DNA of 41,858 nt from Acidobacteriota bacterium (GTDB lineage: Bacteria; Acidobacteriota; DATKUA01; JAFGBY01), in assembly GCA_016932915.1 (NCBI GenBank), contig JAFGBY010000122.1, forward strand, positions 1 to 41,858, in the 5' to 3' direction. The translations under genes and the position numbers were made by a program. Below the pieces are notes generated by a model. The model had not been told where the DNA came from, searched no databases, and saw only the letters and a list, made by a program, of their open reading frames with translations. This document shows, in pieces, positions 3,562 to 40,894 of the stretch (its first letter is position 1; each line of letters opens with the position of its first letter).

Positions 3562-6372
3562 ATGAAAATTTTTGACAGGTATATAATAGCTGAACTTTTC
3601 CCATTTACTCTGGTGGGGCTGGCTGTTATTTCCTTTATTATTTTAATCAATCAAATCGTGGTATTGGCAGGATTCCTCATCAGGAATTCGGTTTCCATCT
3701 GGGTACTCCTTAAAATTATTTTCAACCTGATACCTTCAGCGATAATCTTCGGTATTCCGATGTCGATTCTAGTCGGGACAATCCTTGCAATAGGCAGATT
3801 ATCCGCCGAGAGCGAAATCACCGCGTTCAGGGCTTGCGGTATCAATATCATCAAATTTATAAAACCTATCCTTATTTTTACAATTTTCGCTTTCATCATG
3901 GATATTTTAGTATCTGTATACTGGCTGCCGGATTCTAACGATAAGCTGGTAAAATTATACCGTCAGATTATCGCTTCCCGAACGATCACAGGCCAGGTGA
4001 AGCCTAGAGTATTTTTCGAGCGTATTTCCAATAAGGTACTATACATTACCCAGACCCAGAACAATAACAGGGTTTGGAAAGACGTAATAATTTTTGATAC
4101 TTCCAAAGCTTATGAACCGAGCCTTATAATGGCAAAAAAAGGTGTCCCACACGATGAGGATGCTGAAAAAGGCTTAATGCTAACCCTTGAAGATGCTACT
4201 ATTTATGACATCAACCTGAACGACCCGATAAAAAAATCAAGAATGAGCCGAACGCCTTCAATGTTGATACAACTCGCCGAACAGAAGAAATTTCACAACC
4301 TTGCGATACAGAGAGCAAAAAGCGACCGGGCGATGAACATCAAACAGCTACAGGAAAGCGTAAAACAAACTTTTAAACAGAATCAAATAATCTTTCATTT
4401 TTATAATCATACAGAAGAATTAAAAACCCTGGCTGTTACCTTGACAATCAAGGACAAAGAAAACGAAAAGGATTATACTTCCAGTTTCAAACTGGCTCCG
4501 AATTCGATGGATAAATATAGCCTCTATTTCACCCTGCCGAAGAAAAAAAATCTACAATCAATGAGTTTAAAGGTAGTATCTCGCAAAGCAAATGGCATAG
4601 ATGATAATATTTATAACGGCACTATGACCGGGGATAAAATCAGGGAGATGGTCAATCGAAATGAAGCAGTCATTTCACATAATAACGCCTTCACATATGT
4701 TTTTCCTGACGCAAAGGGTAACAAAGATATATCTATCTCACAGGTCAAAATAAAAAATATTCAGTTCAGAAGACCTCATGAGAAATACCTGGTAGAAATT
4801 CATAAGAAATTTTCAATCCCCTTCTCCTGCCTGATCTTCGGACTGCTTGGACTTCCGCTCGGTATTACATCGAGGAGAGCGGGTAAATCTTTTGGTTATG
4901 TAACAAGTGTATTGATATTTACCTCTTATTGGTACCTCCTGATCAATGCCGAGATATGGGGTGATAAAGGTAAAGTATCACCATTTCTGGGCGCCTGGTT
5001 TGCTAATTTTATATTCCTTGCATTTGCAGTGATCCTGCTTATTCGGATGGGAAAACCGACAAAAGGAAAAGTCGGAGAACTTTTTAATATATGTATTACA
5101 TCGATTAAGAATTTCTCTCAAAAATACTTATCCCAGCTGAAAAAATCTGTATTCAGTAAAAAGGAAAAATCCAGCGCCTCTGTAAACAAGCAACAAAGCA
5201 CATCTTCCAGCATATGGCAAAACAGACAAGGGACACGAGTTGTGCTCCAGATCCCAAGATATTATTTCCGATTCCCTAATATCCTCGATAGGTATATTAT
5301 TAAAACATTCATTAAACTCTTTCTGATGTCCCTCCTGGTCCTATACATAATCTCTATGATTATCCAGTTCACGGAAATTAATGACGATTTTCAGGCAAAG
5401 AAATCTTCCTATACACTGCTGTGGGATTATTATAAATACCGATTACCTAGCACAATGTTGATGCTAATACCAATCTCATCATTAATTGCAACCCTTGCTA
5501 CATTCGGAGTACTTTCGAGAAATAACGAGACAATTGCGATGAAAGCGGCAGGCGTGAGCCAATACCGAATGGCGTTATCCATCATCGTACTAGCAATCAT
5601 TTTTAGTGGAATAACATATAATATAAATGAGAATGTAATTCCTCAATCAAAGATAAAATTTGATGAAGTTGAAAGAAAGATTAAAAAACTGGAAACTCAG
5701 ACAATTGAACAGCCGAGGCGTCAATTCCTTTTCGGGGAGTCAAAAGGAGATAATGTAAGCCGGATTTATTATTTCTATCGTTACAACGAGCAGGAAAAAA
5801 CATTTGATGATATCTCCTATTACGATTACAACAGGGAAACAATGACCCTGGTTCAGCGTCTGGCTGCAAAATCATCTGAGTGGGAAGATCATTATAAGGG
5901 ATGGTTGTTCCGTGACGGTTGGATACAAAAATATACTCCTCAGGGTTTTATGACCGAAGAATTCCAGAACCGGATTCAGAGACTCGATGAAACGCCGGAT
6001 TACTTTAAAAAGACCTGGAGAAGGCCTGATCAGATGGATTACCAGGAATTAAAAAAACTCATTAGCGAGATTAAATCCAAGGGGCTTGATCCGGTTTATG
6101 AACAGGTAAATCTCCACTGGAAAATGGCTTATGCTCTTGTTACATTTGTGGTTGTAATGATAGGGATACCTTTCAGTTTCAGGATGGATAATAAGGGATC
6201 CCTGGCAGGAATTTTCATCGCGCTGGTTATCATCCTGATTTTCTACCCGATGACAAATATATTTAGACATCTTGGATACTCCGGAGTTCTCCCCCCTACC
6301 CTTGCGGCGTGGGCAGGAAACCTGATTTTTGTACTAGTGGGTCTGATTTTTCTTACAAGAATGAGGACGTAA
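3562..6372 (+). CDS. LptF-LptG fusion: LPS export ABC transporter permease, two YjgP/YjgQ units in one polypeptide
   Basis: 936 aa. First unit MKIFDRYIIAELFPFTLVGLAVISFI...EIHKKFSIPFSCLIFGLLGLPLGI; second unit NILDRYIIKTFIKLFLMSLLVLYIISMIIQF...NLHWKMAYALVTFVVVMIGIPFSFR. Basic/Ser-rich linker (KKSVFSKKEKSSASVNKQQSTSSS) between them. Confidence 0.93.
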   Translation: MKIFDRYIIAELFPFTLVGLAVISFIILINQIVVLAGFLIRNSVSIWVLLKIIFNLIPSAIIFGIPMSILVGTILAIGRLSAESEITAFRACGINIIKFIKPILIFTIFAFIMDILVSVYWLPDSNDKLVKLYRQIIASRTITGQVKPRVFFERISNKVLYITQTQNNNRVWKDVIIFDTSKAYEPSLIMAKKGVPHDEDAEKGLMLTLEDATIYDINLNDPIKKSRMSRTPSMLIQLAEQKKFHNLAIQRAKSDRAMNIKQLQESVKQTFKQNQIIFHFYNHTEELKTLAVTLTIKDKENEKDYTSSFKLAPNSMDKYSLYFTLPKKKNLQSMSLKVVSRKANGIDDNIYNGTMTGDKIREMVNRNEAVISHNNAFTYVFPDAKGNKDISISQVKIKNIQFRRPHEKYLVEIHKKFSIPFSCLIFGLLGLPLGITSRRAGKSFGYVTSVLIFTSYWYLLINAEIWGDKGKVSPFLGAWFANFIFLAFAVILLIRMGKPTKGKVGELFNICITSIKNFSQKYLSQLKKSVFSKKEKSSASVNKQQSTSSSIWQNRQGTRVVLQIPRYYFRFPNILDRYIIKTFIKLFLMSLLVLYIISMIIQFTEINDDFQAKKSSYTLLWDYYKYRLPSTMLMLIPISSLIATLATFGVLSRNNETIAMKAAGVSQYRMALSIIVLAIIFSGITYNINENVIPQSKIKFDEVERKIKKLETQTIEQPRRQFLFGESKGDNVSRIYYFYRYNEQEKTFDDISYYDYNRETMTLVQRLAAKSSEWEDHYKGWLFRDGWIQKYTPQGFMTEEFQNRIQRLDETPDYFKKTWRRPDQMDYQELKKLISEIKSKGLDPVYEQVNLHWKMAYALVTFVVVMIGIPFSFRMDNKGSLAGIFIALVIILIFYPMTNIFRHLGYSGVLPPTLAAWAGNLIFVLVGLIFLTRMRT

Positions 6373-35421: not shown

Positions 35422-37485
35422 TTAATTTTTTGATTTTTTATCCGATCGTTCTTCCATCTCAGCCAGGACGGAGCGAAAAGCTGATAATTCCTCATCTCTT
35501 CTTTGATGTGGTATAACCAACCTCCCTGGTTCTCCCATTTCTTTCAGCTTTTTTAACTTCGCTTTAAATTCAAGACTCGATGAAAAGATAAAATCTTCTT
35601 TAAACTGATCTTTAACACCAGGATATGAATATACCAGCGGAACTATCCCCTTCGCTTCCGCTTCAAGGATTGAATACGGTAATCCTTCGGATGTCGAAAC
35701 GGAAAGTATCGAAACAGGTTTTATATCATCGAACCAGCTGTTTATATCCACCTGCCAGCCGTGAAATATCACCCTGTTCTGCATCTTTAATGATTCAATC
35801 TGATTCAAGATAAAATCCTGGTATTCTTCGTCCTGAAAATCTCCTGCTATGTGTAATTTGAACCTTTTATCAGATGCATTGAGAAGATCTATTAAAAATC
35901 CAAGGTTTTTCCTTTTATGAATATACCCGACATAACAGAGATTCCATCGATTATAACTTTCAAGAGGTCTATATTGCTCTGGATCAATCTTGTTCTCGAT
36001 TATTGCCGTTCGGCAGGGCAATTCACCAGCTTTTTCCCTGATATACTTCGATGTAAATACAGCAAGGTGAACATTTTTCCAGTTAATCTCCTTGAAGAGG
36101 TTCTGATATACCTCATATCTATGAATCCTTGTGATAAGGTGGCACCGGAATTTATGCAGCGCCGCCTCGAAAAGATTCCTGTCCGCCCATTCCACAAAAG
36201 CGACATCCGCCCAGGCCATATGAGCAAGATCAAGGCGTTCATGTACGATAACATTATGGGATTTCTTCCAATCCTCGACAAGCCTTGTAGTAAACTGGCC
36301 TGTTGCATCGACAACATAGAGATTTTTCTTTTTAGAATCCGGTACTTTGATCCTTAATGCCGCCGCGCTCAATGAAGCCCTCACTCCCTCCAGCAAATCT
36401 CCGTTCTCCGGTTTTTTCTGCAATCCGATCATCCCTGCCCTAAAAGCCTTTGCATAGTTCCCCTGCGAGTAATGAAGCTGCATCAGCCTTAGCCACGGGC
36501 CGTGGGTTATCGCCAAGCCGTATCTGAAAAGATGATCCTCTTCCGGCGCCGTGTTTCCAGCAGTCAGCAGGAATCGCTCTGCCTCCCTCGGCTTATCCAT
36601 CAACAGGAAAACTTCTCCCAATCCCAGCCAAATCTCCGGGGAATCAGCACGGTACTCCAATCCCTTAAAGAAATTTTCCACAGCAAGATCAAATTTCTCT
36701 TTCGCTATGGAAATCATACCGAGTTTGTAATATGCCCAGCTCTGTTCGCTCTCAGAGGGAATCCCCTGATTTTCCGAAGCCTCGATATATTTCCGATAAT
36801 ATACCTCCGCCTGGTCATAAAGTTCGCTGTTAAGATAACTCTGCGCCAGGTAAAATAAAGACCGAAGGTCTCCTGGGTTTTTCTCGATCTCAGGCAGAAA
36901 AACCTTCTCAGCCATCTCGAGCCGCTGGATCTTCCTGATCTTCGCATTTTCTTTAGTGCGCTGATGAAAAATCACAATCTCCGGGGTTTTAATCCTGAAT
37001 TCTGTCGGGCATGATTCAGTCGAGATATAGTTATGCATCGCTCCATCATAAATAACCTCAAAATCATTCCGCCAGAGGTGATCCTGGAAAAACCTGCTAT
37101 TCGGTTGTCCATCCACCCATTCATCCCACATCTCTATTGCCACAAGCCGGATATCTTCAGGGATAACATTCAATAGTTCTTTGATCTTTTCCTCATCCCC
37201 GGGTCGCAGGAATTCATGCCCATCAAGCTGGAAAATCCAATCGCAATTACATCTGGCAATCGCATTGTTTCTCGCTTCTGCAAAGCTGTCATTCCACATG
37301 AACTCAAAAATCTCAACCTCACCATTGAAAGAAGGGAGAAATTCGCTGATCACATCTACCGTAGAGTCTGTTGTCGTATCATCAATACCGATGATAATTT
37401 CATCACTGAATCTTCCTGCGCTCTCAAGTGTCCGCATAAGTGTTGCCGCCTCATTCTTTACAATGATGAAGGTTGAGATACTCAT
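35422..37485 (-). CDS. multidomain glycosyltransferase: GT2 + TPR + GT4-like
   Basis: Start at MSISTFIIVKNEA (SD AAAGGAG, 8 nt spacing) rather than the track's 37530. N-terminal GT2 fold (TFIIVKNEAATLMRTL...IIIGIDD...WIFQLDGHEFL), middle TPRs (DLRSLFYLAQSYLNSELYDQAEVYYRKY), C-terminal GT-B region (NLCYVGYIHKRKNLGFLIDLL...FHGWQVDINSWFDDIKPVSILSVSTSEGLPYSILEAEAKGIVPLVY). Confidence 0.85.
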   Translation of the reverse strand: MSISTFIIVKNEAATLMRTLESAGRFSDEIIIGIDDTTTDSTVDVISEFLPSFNGEVEIFEFMWNDSFAEARNNAIARCNCDWIFQLDGHEFLRPGDEEKIKELLNVIPEDIRLVAIEMWDEWVDGQPNSRFFQDHLWRNDFEVIYDGAMHNYISTESCPTEFRIKTPEIVIFHQRTKENAKIRKIQRLEMAEKVFLPEIEKNPGDLRSLFYLAQSYLNSELYDQAEVYYRKYIEASENQGIPSESEQSWAYYKLGMISIAKEKFDLAVENFFKGLEYRADSPEIWLGLGEVFLLMDKPREAERFLLTAGNTAPEEDHLFRYGLAITHGPWLRLMQLHYSQGNYAKAFRAGMIGLQKKPENGDLLEGVRASLSAAALRIKVPDSKKKNLYVVDATGQFTTRLVEDWKKSHNVIVHERLDLAHMAWADVAFVEWADRNLFEAALHKFRCHLITRIHRYEVYQNLFKEINWKNVHLAVFTSKYIREKAGELPCRTAIIENKIDPEQYRPLESYNRWNLCYVGYIHKRKNLGFLIDLLNASDKRFKLHIAGDFQDEEYQDFILNQIESLKMQNRVIFHGWQVDINSWFDDIKPVSILSVSTSEGLPYSILEAEAKGIVPLVYSYPGVKDQFKEDFIFSSSLEFKAKLKKLKEMGEPGRLVIPHQRRDEELSAFRSVLAEMEERSDKKSKN

Positions 37486-37486
37486 C

Positions 37487-37921
37487 TTATAAACTCCTTT
37501 CGTAATTGACCTCCAATTCAACAGTAACAAGAAAATAGTTATCGTTATGGATATCGATAGATTTACTGAAATTATTGAACGAAAAATTATCGCTGACAGT
37601 ATTTTTAATGAACTCGGTTTCTACTCGTGAACATTCTTCCAAGATTGACTTCCTTGCTGCAACTGGATCCTGGTTTTTTATCTGGTAGAGAACCTGAACA
37701 TGTACATTGTCTCTGCAATCCGCAACATAACCTGAGTTATAATTTCGCGTTAATTGGGTTGTTCCCGATAGAAAAAATACCGGCTGATCGATATCAGGAA
37801 GATCATCTGTGGAGATCGCCCAGGGAATCTGCCTGTAACCTAAAACCGTTGAAAATCTTTCTATAATAAAATCCAATATCTCATCAAGCGAATCGCCTGT
37901 AATCTGGTTTTTATCAGTCAT
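37487..37921 (-). CDS. small protein, possible phage tail-terminator/minor-tail-like
   Basis: 144 aa; LDEILDFIIERFSTVLG...VQVLYQIKNQDPVAARKSILEECSRVETEFIKN...YFLVTVELEVNYERSL; fold-pattern resemblance plus operon context only. Confidence 0.45.
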   Translation of the reverse strand: MTDKNQITGDSLDEILDFIIERFSTVLGYRQIPWAISTDDLPDIDQPVFFLSGTTQLTRNYNSGYVADCRDNVHVQVLYQIKNQDPVAARKSILEECSRVETEFIKNTVSDNFSFNNFSKSIDIHNDNYFLVTVELEVNYERSL

Positions 37922-37929
37922 CCGCTCAC

Positions 37930-38238
37930 CTACTCAACATAAAAAAAGATATCGTCTTCAATCAGGTTTTTCGAATCAGATACAAAGCTGACCGTTGCAC
38001 GGTATTTACCAGCAACACCTGTCAAAGAAGTCTGAAAATTATATTCATACACTCCAACTGAAATCTGGGTCATTGTAGTGACAGTCTGCACCGTAGTATT
38101 GTGCGGATTAACAAGCTTGATCAAAGCTGATGTCGGATCGGTGGCAATGGCATCCTTGAAGAAATTAACTTTGATACGGATCGATGATCCAAGATCATTC
38201 ACGTTATTGACAACTGCCCATGTCACTTGATCTATCAT
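37930..38238 (-). CDS. small all-beta (Ig-like) protein, possibly phage virion-associated
   Basis: 102 aa; LGSSIRIKVNFFKDA...ALIKLVNPHNTTVQTVTTMTQISVGVYEYNFQTSLTGVAGKYRATVSFVSDSKNLIEDDIFFYVE; good SD in tight operon. Confidence 0.45.
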   Translation of the reverse strand: MIDQVTWAVVNNVNDLGSSIRIKVNFFKDAIATDPTSALIKLVNPHNTTVQTVTTMTQISVGVYEYNFQTSLTGVAGKYRATVSFVSDSKNLIEDDIFFYVE

Positions 38239-38241
38239 CGC

Positions 38242-38964
38242 CTAGCTCCTTTCTATTGAAACATTGGATAAATCTTTAGCCGGTTCATTGGCAAATCCAT
38301 CCATAGTATCGTCATAATGGATAGTTTGAGTACTTATCATCTCTTCGAAATCCTCTATGTAACTCTCAGCTAGGGATGAATAGGAATCATCAGGATTAGT
38401 GGACATATTGCGGTAGATGATCGAAAGCGCGAGCTTCAACAATGGCATTTTTAATTCAGACCAGTTGAGAATCCTCCAGGGCTTGAGTCCCTTCTTGTTC
38501 AACAGAATATTGGATAGTTCCATATATGCCTGTTTGATCTCATTTTCCCAGCGGTAATTTTCATCAGGCGCCAGAGTTTTTAATTTGGAATCACGGCTGA
38601 TCAGGTCATCATAGGTCAGTGGATTGAACGGCTCTGTATTCGAGATATGGAACCATAAATCCTTGTAATACGAACCCGAGTTATAAGTGAAAGCAAATGT
38701 AGCTTTGTAATAATCGCCTAGGTTTGCTGTATTCTCGGAGGTCATTGCACATCCAATCCAACCGTCACTTTCGGGAGTCACACTGACCTCGCTTACAGGA
38801 TTTGGAAGATCGTAACCATATCTGTCGTTGATAGTGACCGTTGTGTTTGAAAACAATGCGCCATTCTCAACGATATATCCTGTATCGGGATCCCGGAAAT
38901 AAAATCCGAGTTTCCTTTTTGTATAAGATCTACCCTTTCTTAAAACTATAGTTTCCTCATTCAT
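38242..38964 (-). CDS. two-domain protein (N-terminal beta, C-terminal helical), possible phage head-tail connector-like
   Basis: 240 aa; beta region TIVLRKGRSYTKRKLGFYFRDPDTGYIVENGALFSNTTVTI; helical region TYDDLISRDSKLKTLAPDENYRWENEIKQAYMELSNILLNKKGLKPWRILNWSELKMPLLKLALSIIYRNM. Confidence 0.45.
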   Translation of the reverse strand: MNEETIVLRKGRSYTKRKLGFYFRDPDTGYIVENGALFSNTTVTINDRYGYDLPNPVSEVSVTPESDGWIGCAMTSENTANLGDYYKATFAFTYNSGSYYKDLWFHISNTEPFNPLTYDDLISRDSKLKTLAPDENYRWENEIKQAYMELSNILLNKKGLKPWRILNWSELKMPLLKLALSIIYRNMSTNPDDSYSSLAESYIEDFEEMISTQTIHYDDTMDGFANEPAKDLSNVSIERS

Positions 38965-39000: not shown

Positions 39001-39058
39001 CGACTTTTTGTCGTATGTGACATTAAAATTCTATCAGTCACAAGCGACATTATGTCAA
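39001..39058 (-). promoter_or_regulatory. putative promoter/operator of the phage-like operon
   Basis: Minus strand TTGACA (39058-39053), 19 nt, extended -10 TGATAGAAT (39036-39028). Palindrome GACATTATGTC (39046-39056), direct repeats GTGACATTA (39017) and GCGACATTA (39044), hairpin CGAC-ttttt-GTCG. Confidence 0.45.
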
Positions 39059-39103: not shown

Positions 39104-40894
39104 CTAGTCTTTGCGAAGAATAGTGTGGAAGGCCTCCTGGGGAATCTCAATCTTGCCCAGTTTTTTCATCCTCTTCTTGCCTTCTTTCTGTTTTTCCAGG
39201 AGTTTCCGCTTCCTTGTGATGTCACCGCCGTAGCACTTGGCAGTAACGTTTTTCCGCATCGGTTTGATCGTCTCACGTGCAATGACTTTATTTCCAATCG
39301 CACACTGAATTACGACTTCGTAAAGTTGCCTTGGAATTACTCTCTTCATCTTAAGAGCCAATTCCCTGCCCTTGCTTGGAGCATTGCTCCGGTGAGTAAT
39401 TAACGACAACGCATCAACAACTTGCCCGTTCACCAGGACATCCAGTTTGACCAGCGGTGATGTTTCAAATTTTTTGAAGTTATAATCGAAAGAGGCATAT
39501 CCCCTGCTGACGCTTTTTAGTTTATCGTAAAAATCTATGACAACCTCGTTCAGCGGAAGATCATAGCGGAAAAGGACCTTACCGACTGAAAGGTATTTCA
39601 TTTCCTGCTGTACACCACGGCGGTCTTCGAGCAGCTTCAGTATTGGACCAATGAATTCACTCTCGGAAAGAATCATCGCTTCGATAATCGGCTCAGCAAC
39701 ATCCAAAATCTCATTAGCTTCGGGCCATTTTGCAGGATTATCAACGATTTTTTCGGTTCCGTCTTTATACTTAATCTGGTAACCGACTTCAGGGGCAGTC
39801 GTAATTAATTCCAGGTTAAATTCTCTCTCCAGCCTCTGTTGGATTATCTCCATATGCAGTAAACCAAGGTAACCACATCTGAAACCAAAACCAAGAGCCA
39901 TACTTGTTTCCGGTTCGTACTGAAATGAAGAATCGTTGAGCTGGAGTTTTTCCATTGCGCTCCGCAGGTCTTCATAATCTGCGGGGTCTATTGGGTAAAG
40001 GCCGCTGAAAACCATCGGCTTAACCTGTTTAAAACCCGGAAATGGTTTCACATTAGGGTGTTTGGCATTAACAATGGTATCGCCGATTTTTGTATCCTGG
40101 ATATTTTTAATTCCCGCGATGAGGTAGCCGACCTCTCCTGCGGATAAGGTTTTAGTTCTCGTCATCTTTGGAGTGAAAATACCCAGTTCCGTTAATTCAT
40201 ACTCACTGCGCGATGACAGCATCTTGATAATATTCCCACTTGTAATTGTACCATCAAGAATACGAACTAACATCACTACACCACGGTAAGAGTCATACCA
40301 AGAGTCAAAAAGCATTGCTTTAAATGGAGCATGCGGATCACCTCCCGGCGCAGGAATCCTGTCAACAATTCTCTGAAGAACCTCGCGCACCCCGTCTCCC
40401 CGTTTTGCGCTGATTGACAAAGCATCCTCTGCCGATACTCCCACAATCTCTTCGATCTGTTGTTTGACGTAATCTGGCCGGGCTGATGCTAGATCGATTT
40501 TGTTTATTACAGGTACGATCTCCAGGTCGTTATCGATTGCCTGGTAGGCATTAGCAACAGTTTGGGCTTCGACACCCTGTGAAGCGTCAACAACCAGTAA
40601 TGCGCCCTCACAGGCTGCAAGGCTCCTGGACACCTCATAAGAAAAATCGACATGCCCTGGTGTATCTATGAAATTGAAAAGATATTTCTCTTTATCGTCA
40701 GCAGTGAACTGGATTGTCACCGCCCTTGCTTTTATGGTGATCCCTCTCTCACGCTCGAGTTCCATATCATCAAGCACCTGCTCCCGCATCTCTCTAGTGC
40801 TAACTGCCTGTGTAAGTTCAAGAATCCTGTCTGCAAGCGTAGATTTACCATGATCTATATGCGCTATAATACTGAAGTTTCGTATATGTTTCAT
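39104..40894 (-). CDS. lepA: elongation factor 4
   Basis: [94 protein letters not shown]-terminal [25 protein letters not shown]. Confidence 0.98.

Follow-up and report, generated by a model that had tools for sequence, protein, structure and literature searches.

The locus described here raises the question of what a compact operon with phage-like genes is doing among the housekeeping genes of a bacterial chromosome. The source genome is a metagenome-assembled genome (MAG) of 2.33 Mb, which is distributed over 178 contigs and is 75.6% complete. The window analysed is the entire 41.9-kb contig C8 of this MAG. The operon (positions 35422-38964) consists of four minus-strand ORFs, which are separated by 3, 8 and 1 bp and have good ribosome-binding sites. 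It is bordered by lepA, which ends at 39104, on one side, and by tRNA-Val and tRNA-Asp genes, with parA and parB beyond, on the other. The tight spacing, the Shine-Dalgarno sequences and the housekeeping setting had all been reported in a preliminary description and are borne out, as is the claim that the window lacks other phage genes, since none was seen on the whole contig besides the operon. No attachment-like direct repeat was found around the block, including beside the tRNA pair. All four ORFs are open, and their codon use and composition resemble those of their neighbours; a foreign origin by composition was rejected, codon use being host-like. Elsewhere in the window, a single 936-aa ORF (3562-6372) looks by eye like fused halves of an LptF/LptG-type permease, which are normally encoded by separate genes. 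The four operon genes are the following:

P0001, 38242..38964, minus strand: 240 aa; N-terminal Ig-like (BppU_N-like) domain and C-terminal helical head-tail connector
P0002, 37930..38238, minus strand: 102 aa; Ig-like domain standing on its own, a possible decoration or collar protein
P0003, 37487..37921, minus strand: 144 aa; tail terminator (lambda gpU-like fold)
P0004, 35422..37485, minus strand: 687 aa from the ATG; fusion of a GT2 glycosyltransferase, TPR repeats and a GT1-type glycosyltransferase

Direct similarity searches with P0001, P0002 and P0003 (Pfam, PHROGs, NCBIfam, phage records, viral contigs and genome contigs) returned nothing firm, nor did PDB sequence searches with P0001 and P0003. 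Connector and terminator profiles were built from phage-contig proteins only, and 3,528 ORFs of the genome, covering 54% of the assembly, were scanned with them. P0001 was the top match of the connector HMM (E 1.2e-8), and P0003 the sole match of the terminator HMM (E 8.6e-7). P0001 was also recovered by a smaller connector profile (E 1.5e-6), and BLASTP aligned it to a protein of the uncultured phage L020 (24% over 202 aa). The AF2 model of P0001 features a beta domain followed by long helices (mean pLDDT 65, about 90 in the C-terminal helices). In BFVD, this model matched an uncultured marine virus protein over its whole length (E 1.3e-9). Its PDB matches were to chains of entry 4v96, a phage injection device of which the baseplate protein BppU is a component. 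Foldseek searches with the P0003 model (pLDDT 68) retrieved mostly phage necks and tail terminators from the PDB, including NF5, Milano, A-1(L), T5 p142 and lambda gpU. P0003 thus combines a gpU-type fold, as modelled, with an HMM match, and the connector-like and tail-terminator folds that had been predicted for the operon are both recovered. The Ig-like fold predicted for P0002 is also retained, though weakly supported: the match to Pfam BppU_N is below the cut-off (E 0.0066), P0002 is the second-ranked match of the connector HMM, by way of the Ig region (E 0.08), and phmmer relates it to the L035 connector (E 0.008).

Homology to the phage connector and terminator profiles shows that the operon ORFs are real genes, not chance frames. 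Profiles and models together identify P0001 and P0003 as the predicted neck of a tailed phage, made of an Ig-connector and a tail terminator. In phages, the terminator gene directly follows the connector gene; at C8, one Ig gene (P0002) lies between them. The tail terminator points to a tail, whether still present or since lost. Weak matches to P0003 in genomes of the phylum were rejected as unrelated frames (G208 was checked).

The head genes map to two other contigs. A terminase search of the genome led to contig C174, in which genes for a 111-aa protein, TerL and a portal lie in a row. TerL matches phrog_2 (E 2.4e-23) and carries ATPase and nuclease motifs (IEKSRQMM, IFIDEAA and YGDPAG), and the portal P0007 matches phrog_145 (E 4.4e-55). 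The contig starts only 267 bp ahead of these genes, and about 76 bp past the portal gene begins a series of housekeeping genes (a pepQ-type peptidase gene, trxA, plsX, fabH, fabD and fabG). A search with the capsid family phrog_267 led to contig C66. Here, the first two genes of an operon encode small cysteine-rich proteins, and the third a protein of 120 aa. Next come a scaffold-like protein, called solely from position and composition, then the major capsid protein (phrog_267, E 6.5e-13), and lastly a protein of 102 aa. A repressor gene, P0012, is divergent from this operon, which is followed by dxs, an ispA-type synthase gene and xseB/xseA. The terminase-portal, capsid and neck genes thus occupy three separate loci among housekeeping genes, and all are intact. 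The two cysteine-rich proteins that open the capsid operon (C66 5396-6087) are zinc-ribbon-like, and no phage counterpart of them was found. The capsid of L020-type phages was also sought; its profile finds nothing in this genome, and the C66 capsid belongs to another family.

The three loci were compared with the IMG/VR viral contigs L020, L035, L036, L038, L183, L185 and L188. The C174 TerL shares about 40% identity, along its full length, with the TerLs of uncultured phages (L020, L035, L036 and L038, as well as L032). These phages carry a gene for a protein of ~230 aa with an Ig domain and a helical C-terminus, then a gene for a protein of ~140 aa and then a tail tube gene. The IMG/VR phages share the Ig-connector protein and the tail terminator with the C8 operon, and L036 also has a related capsid. 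L036 carries homologs of genes from all three loci (TerL, 38%; capsid, phmmer 2.5e-7; connector; terminator), and the three loci therefore fit one kind of virion. In the phages, however, the genes are contiguous, with a tail tube gene past the terminator, and no glycosyltransferase gene lies at that place. No conserved homologs of TerL, the terminator or the glycosyltransferase were found in 396 genomes of the phylum, the closest relatives compared, which gives long vertical inheritance no support. The portal P0007 shows no detectable relation to the portals of those phages whose TerL is closest, so the gene set is mosaic. Among the related sequences, L032 (JAGLON010000059.1, a Candidatus Zixiibacteriota MAG) is a prophage-like region in which a gene for a TerL 39% identical to that of C174 heads an uninterrupted series of portal, scaffold-like and capsid genes, arranged as is usual.

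P0012 features HTH_3 (PF01381, 1.6e-7) and Peptidase_S24 (PF00717, 2.1e-6) domains, an AG cleavage motif (IAAGSP, at 231), a serine (DSMIPV, at 270) and lysines downstream. With its HTH and S24 domains, AG site, serine and lysine, it is a predicted self-cleaving repressor of the LexA/CI type. The gap between the repressor gene and the capsid operon contains two exact GACAN3TGTC palindromes, each overlapping a TTGACA (-35) box, and a third exact copy lies inside the first gene of the capsid operon. Similar elements occur in the gap between lepA and P0001:

O1, 39046..39056, no strand assigned: operator-like palindrome GACATTATGTC, overlapping the -35 hexamer of the operon promoter
O2, 39002..39012, no strand assigned: operator-like palindrome GACTTTTTGTC, with one mismatch, 44 bp downstream of O1
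Promoter, 39028..39058, minus strand: promoter-like element TTGACA-N19-TAGAAT, with the 19-bp spacer also seen in the C66 capsid and C174 terminase operons

O1 is the only exact copy of GACANNNTGTC in the 41.9-kb window and lies over TTGACA, as at C66. The whole genome contains 12 exact copies, 3 of which map to the C66 repressor/capsid locus; a reversed control pattern occurs 30 times. Intergenic pairs of operator-like sites including an exact one are found only at C8, C66 and C152. When the C8 gap is aligned to the C66 gap, 17/20 positions match, which ranks joint first among 366 upstream regions; the other 17/20 match falls in a ribosome-binding region. TTGACW-N19-TANNAT occurs in 6/472 upstream regions, half of them (3 of 6) being those of the C8, C66 and C174 islets; the pattern was picked after the sites had been seen, so that, of the three, C174 alone approaches an independent test (about 1 in 100). 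No clear operator was found upstream of the C174 TerL operon. Since the C8 neck and C66 capsid operons share a rare operator (one exact copy in the window, 12 in the genome), they are probably under the joint control of a DNA-damage-sensitive type of repressor.

Other copies of the palindrome deserve mention. Exact GACAN3TGTC sites at C3, C43, C97, C100 and C104 were set aside, as they lie inside ordinary genes. On contig C78 (5796-5806, L096), an exact site over TTGACA, with a 19-bp spacer, is found upstream of a clpB-like chaperone gene; the regulator may control this stress gene as well, or the site may have arisen by chance. On C152 (1514-1657, L093), three operator-like palindromes, two of them exact, precede the gene of a 177-aa secreted-type protein without family match, and no recognisable phage gene is present on this contig.

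The last gene of the neck operon encodes a glycosyltransferase. In Pfam, P0004 matches Glycos_transf_2 (3.7e-15), TPR and Glycos_transf_1 (4.1e-13), and it matches phrog_13126 with an E value of 9.5e-25. One weak match was obtained in phage records and none in viral contigs. The nearest solved structures are GmaR and SunS, and P0004, scoring 39 bits, falls far below the SunS family cut-off of 350 bits. The N-terminal GT2 domain is the part in which P0004 resembles these GT2 protein glycosyltransferases; unlike them, it adds TPR repeats and a C-terminal GT1-type domain.

We consider it somewhat probable that the C8 operon supplies the neck of a domesticated tailed-phage virion that resides in the host, resembles a gene transfer agent (GTA) and has its genes spread over at least three loci. 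This reading rests on homologies, gene order, intact frames and shared operator sequence, from which we infer repressor binding, SOS induction, particle formation, DNA transfer and a target for P0004. Counting against it are the tail genes that were not found, the lack of a clear operator at the TerL operon, the operator-like sites at C152 and clpB, the missing homologs in the phylum and the mosaic nature of the set. More tentatively, the product would be a GTA-like particle with head and neck genes in separate operons under one phage-type, damage-sensitive repressor and with a dedicated glycosyltransferase. The S24-type repressor of C66 would occupy GACAN3TGTC operators that overlap the -35 boxes of three promoters, namely those of its own gene, of the capsid operon and of the neck operon. 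Upon DNA damage it would cleave itself, and the capsid and neck operons would be transcribed together. Capsid and scaffold would build the head, portal and terminase would fill it with whatever DNA the terminase takes, P0001 and P0003 would close the neck of the filled head, and P0004 would glycosylate one of the particle proteins. What results would function in the manner of a GTA. The preliminary description had left the choice between a remnant of a larger element and a domesticated surface or appendage module. The TerL, portal, scaffold, capsid and repressor genes at two other loci, and the operator shared by C8 and C66, carry that choice further; with a terminase, a portal and a capsid in the genome, a DNA-packaging particle is more likely than a surface or appendage module.

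The operon is not part of an intact prophage, as no contiguous genome, integrase or attachment repeats accompany it and the head genes lie on other contigs. The genes might instead be relics of one or more former prophages, split by rearrangement and deletion, kept intact by recency or chance and devoid of joint function. Phages with such a gene set do exist in contiguous form (L020, L036, L038 and L188), conservation in relatives was not found, and tail, lysis and integrase genes were not found alongside. Yet pseudogene debris is absent, every ORF is open and host-like in codon use, the junctions with housekeeping genes at the three loci are clean and fall at gene boundaries, and operators and matching promoter spacing recur at separate loci. 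We regard relics as unlikely, if by no means negligible. Tail tube, tape measure and lysis genes were not found in the whole assembly using two PHROG tail families and a phage tail-tube profile, and profiles run over 54% of the assembly found no tail genes, which are fast-evolving. Their absence is not decisive because the MAG is only 75.6% complete. Two candidates were dismissed: a possible tail protein at C68 (E 0.0035), which is of secreted type and lies at a contig end beside glycosyltransferase genes, and a match to a tail family at C48 (E 0.02), a 945-aa frame judged to be a chance hit.

The failure to find tail genes would also suit a domesticated capsid-and-neck particle that does not serve DNA transfer. 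It could, for instance, form a protein shell, act in defence or be a glycosylated particle on the surface. The phage relatives do continue to a tail tube gene past the terminator, and the neck operon holds a glycosyltransferase related to the protein glycosyltransferases GmaR and SunS. A DNA-free or tail-less particle, however, would need neither a TerL with ATPase and nuclease motifs nor a portal and a tail terminator, and we hold this explanation to be quite improbable. Still less credit is given to an assembly or binning artefact, in which phage pieces were misjoined to bacterial contigs. The MAG is indeed fragmented into 178 contigs, and C174 starts 267 bp before its phage genes, but housekeeping genes flank both sides at C8 and C66, promoters and ribosome-binding sites are correctly placed at the junctions, codon use is host-like, and it is unlikely that mis-joining happened three times independently, always at the end of a gene. 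The domesticated, dispersed virion is the reading that we carry forward.

If it is true, the cell may make virus-like particles of its own. Screens for prophages and GTAs mostly look for virion genes in clusters. They would miss a virion scattered in small operons among housekeeping genes, and DNA-transfer particles could be commoner than counted. With operators of a phage-type repressor at a locus remote from the gene of that repressor, the takeover of a phage regulon by its host becomes open to test, and the pairing of the neck operon with a protein-type glycosyltransferase makes particle glycosylation testable.

GTAs feature virion proteins related to those of tailed phages, encoded by endogenized genes that often lie at multiple loci and are mostly inherited vertically, co-diversifying with the host; they form caudovirion-like particles, package random host DNA and not all of their own genes, and deliver DNA to other cells (PMC9662315). 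In the genome analysed here, TerL, portal, capsid, connector and terminator are of tailed-phage type, and their genes are found at three loci among housekeeping genes. Packaging of the whole gene set in one head is unlikely, given its dispersal on three contigs. Our claim, to which we lean only slightly, is that the system works like a domesticated GTA-like virion, and not that it is a member of the GTAs. RcGTA genes lie at five loci, whereas the structural genes of BhGTA (VSH-1), which is induced by DNA-damaging agents, form one 16.3-kb cluster, with a likely single terL outside it (PMC9662315). Judging from RcGTA and BhGTA, dispersal as such is already known. A limited literature search did not turn up the combination of a terminase-portal/capsid/neck split, a distant neck operon with operators of a phage-type repressor and a glycosyltransferase in that operon. 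In RcGTA, BhGTA and the present set alike, structural genes of tailed-phage type have become fixed at several loci of a bacterial chromosome. Unlike the single cluster of BhGTA, the terminase-portal, capsid and neck genes form three separate operons in the present set; also unlike BhGTA, an S24 repressor gene faces the capsid operon, and a glycosyltransferase gene is part of the neck operon.
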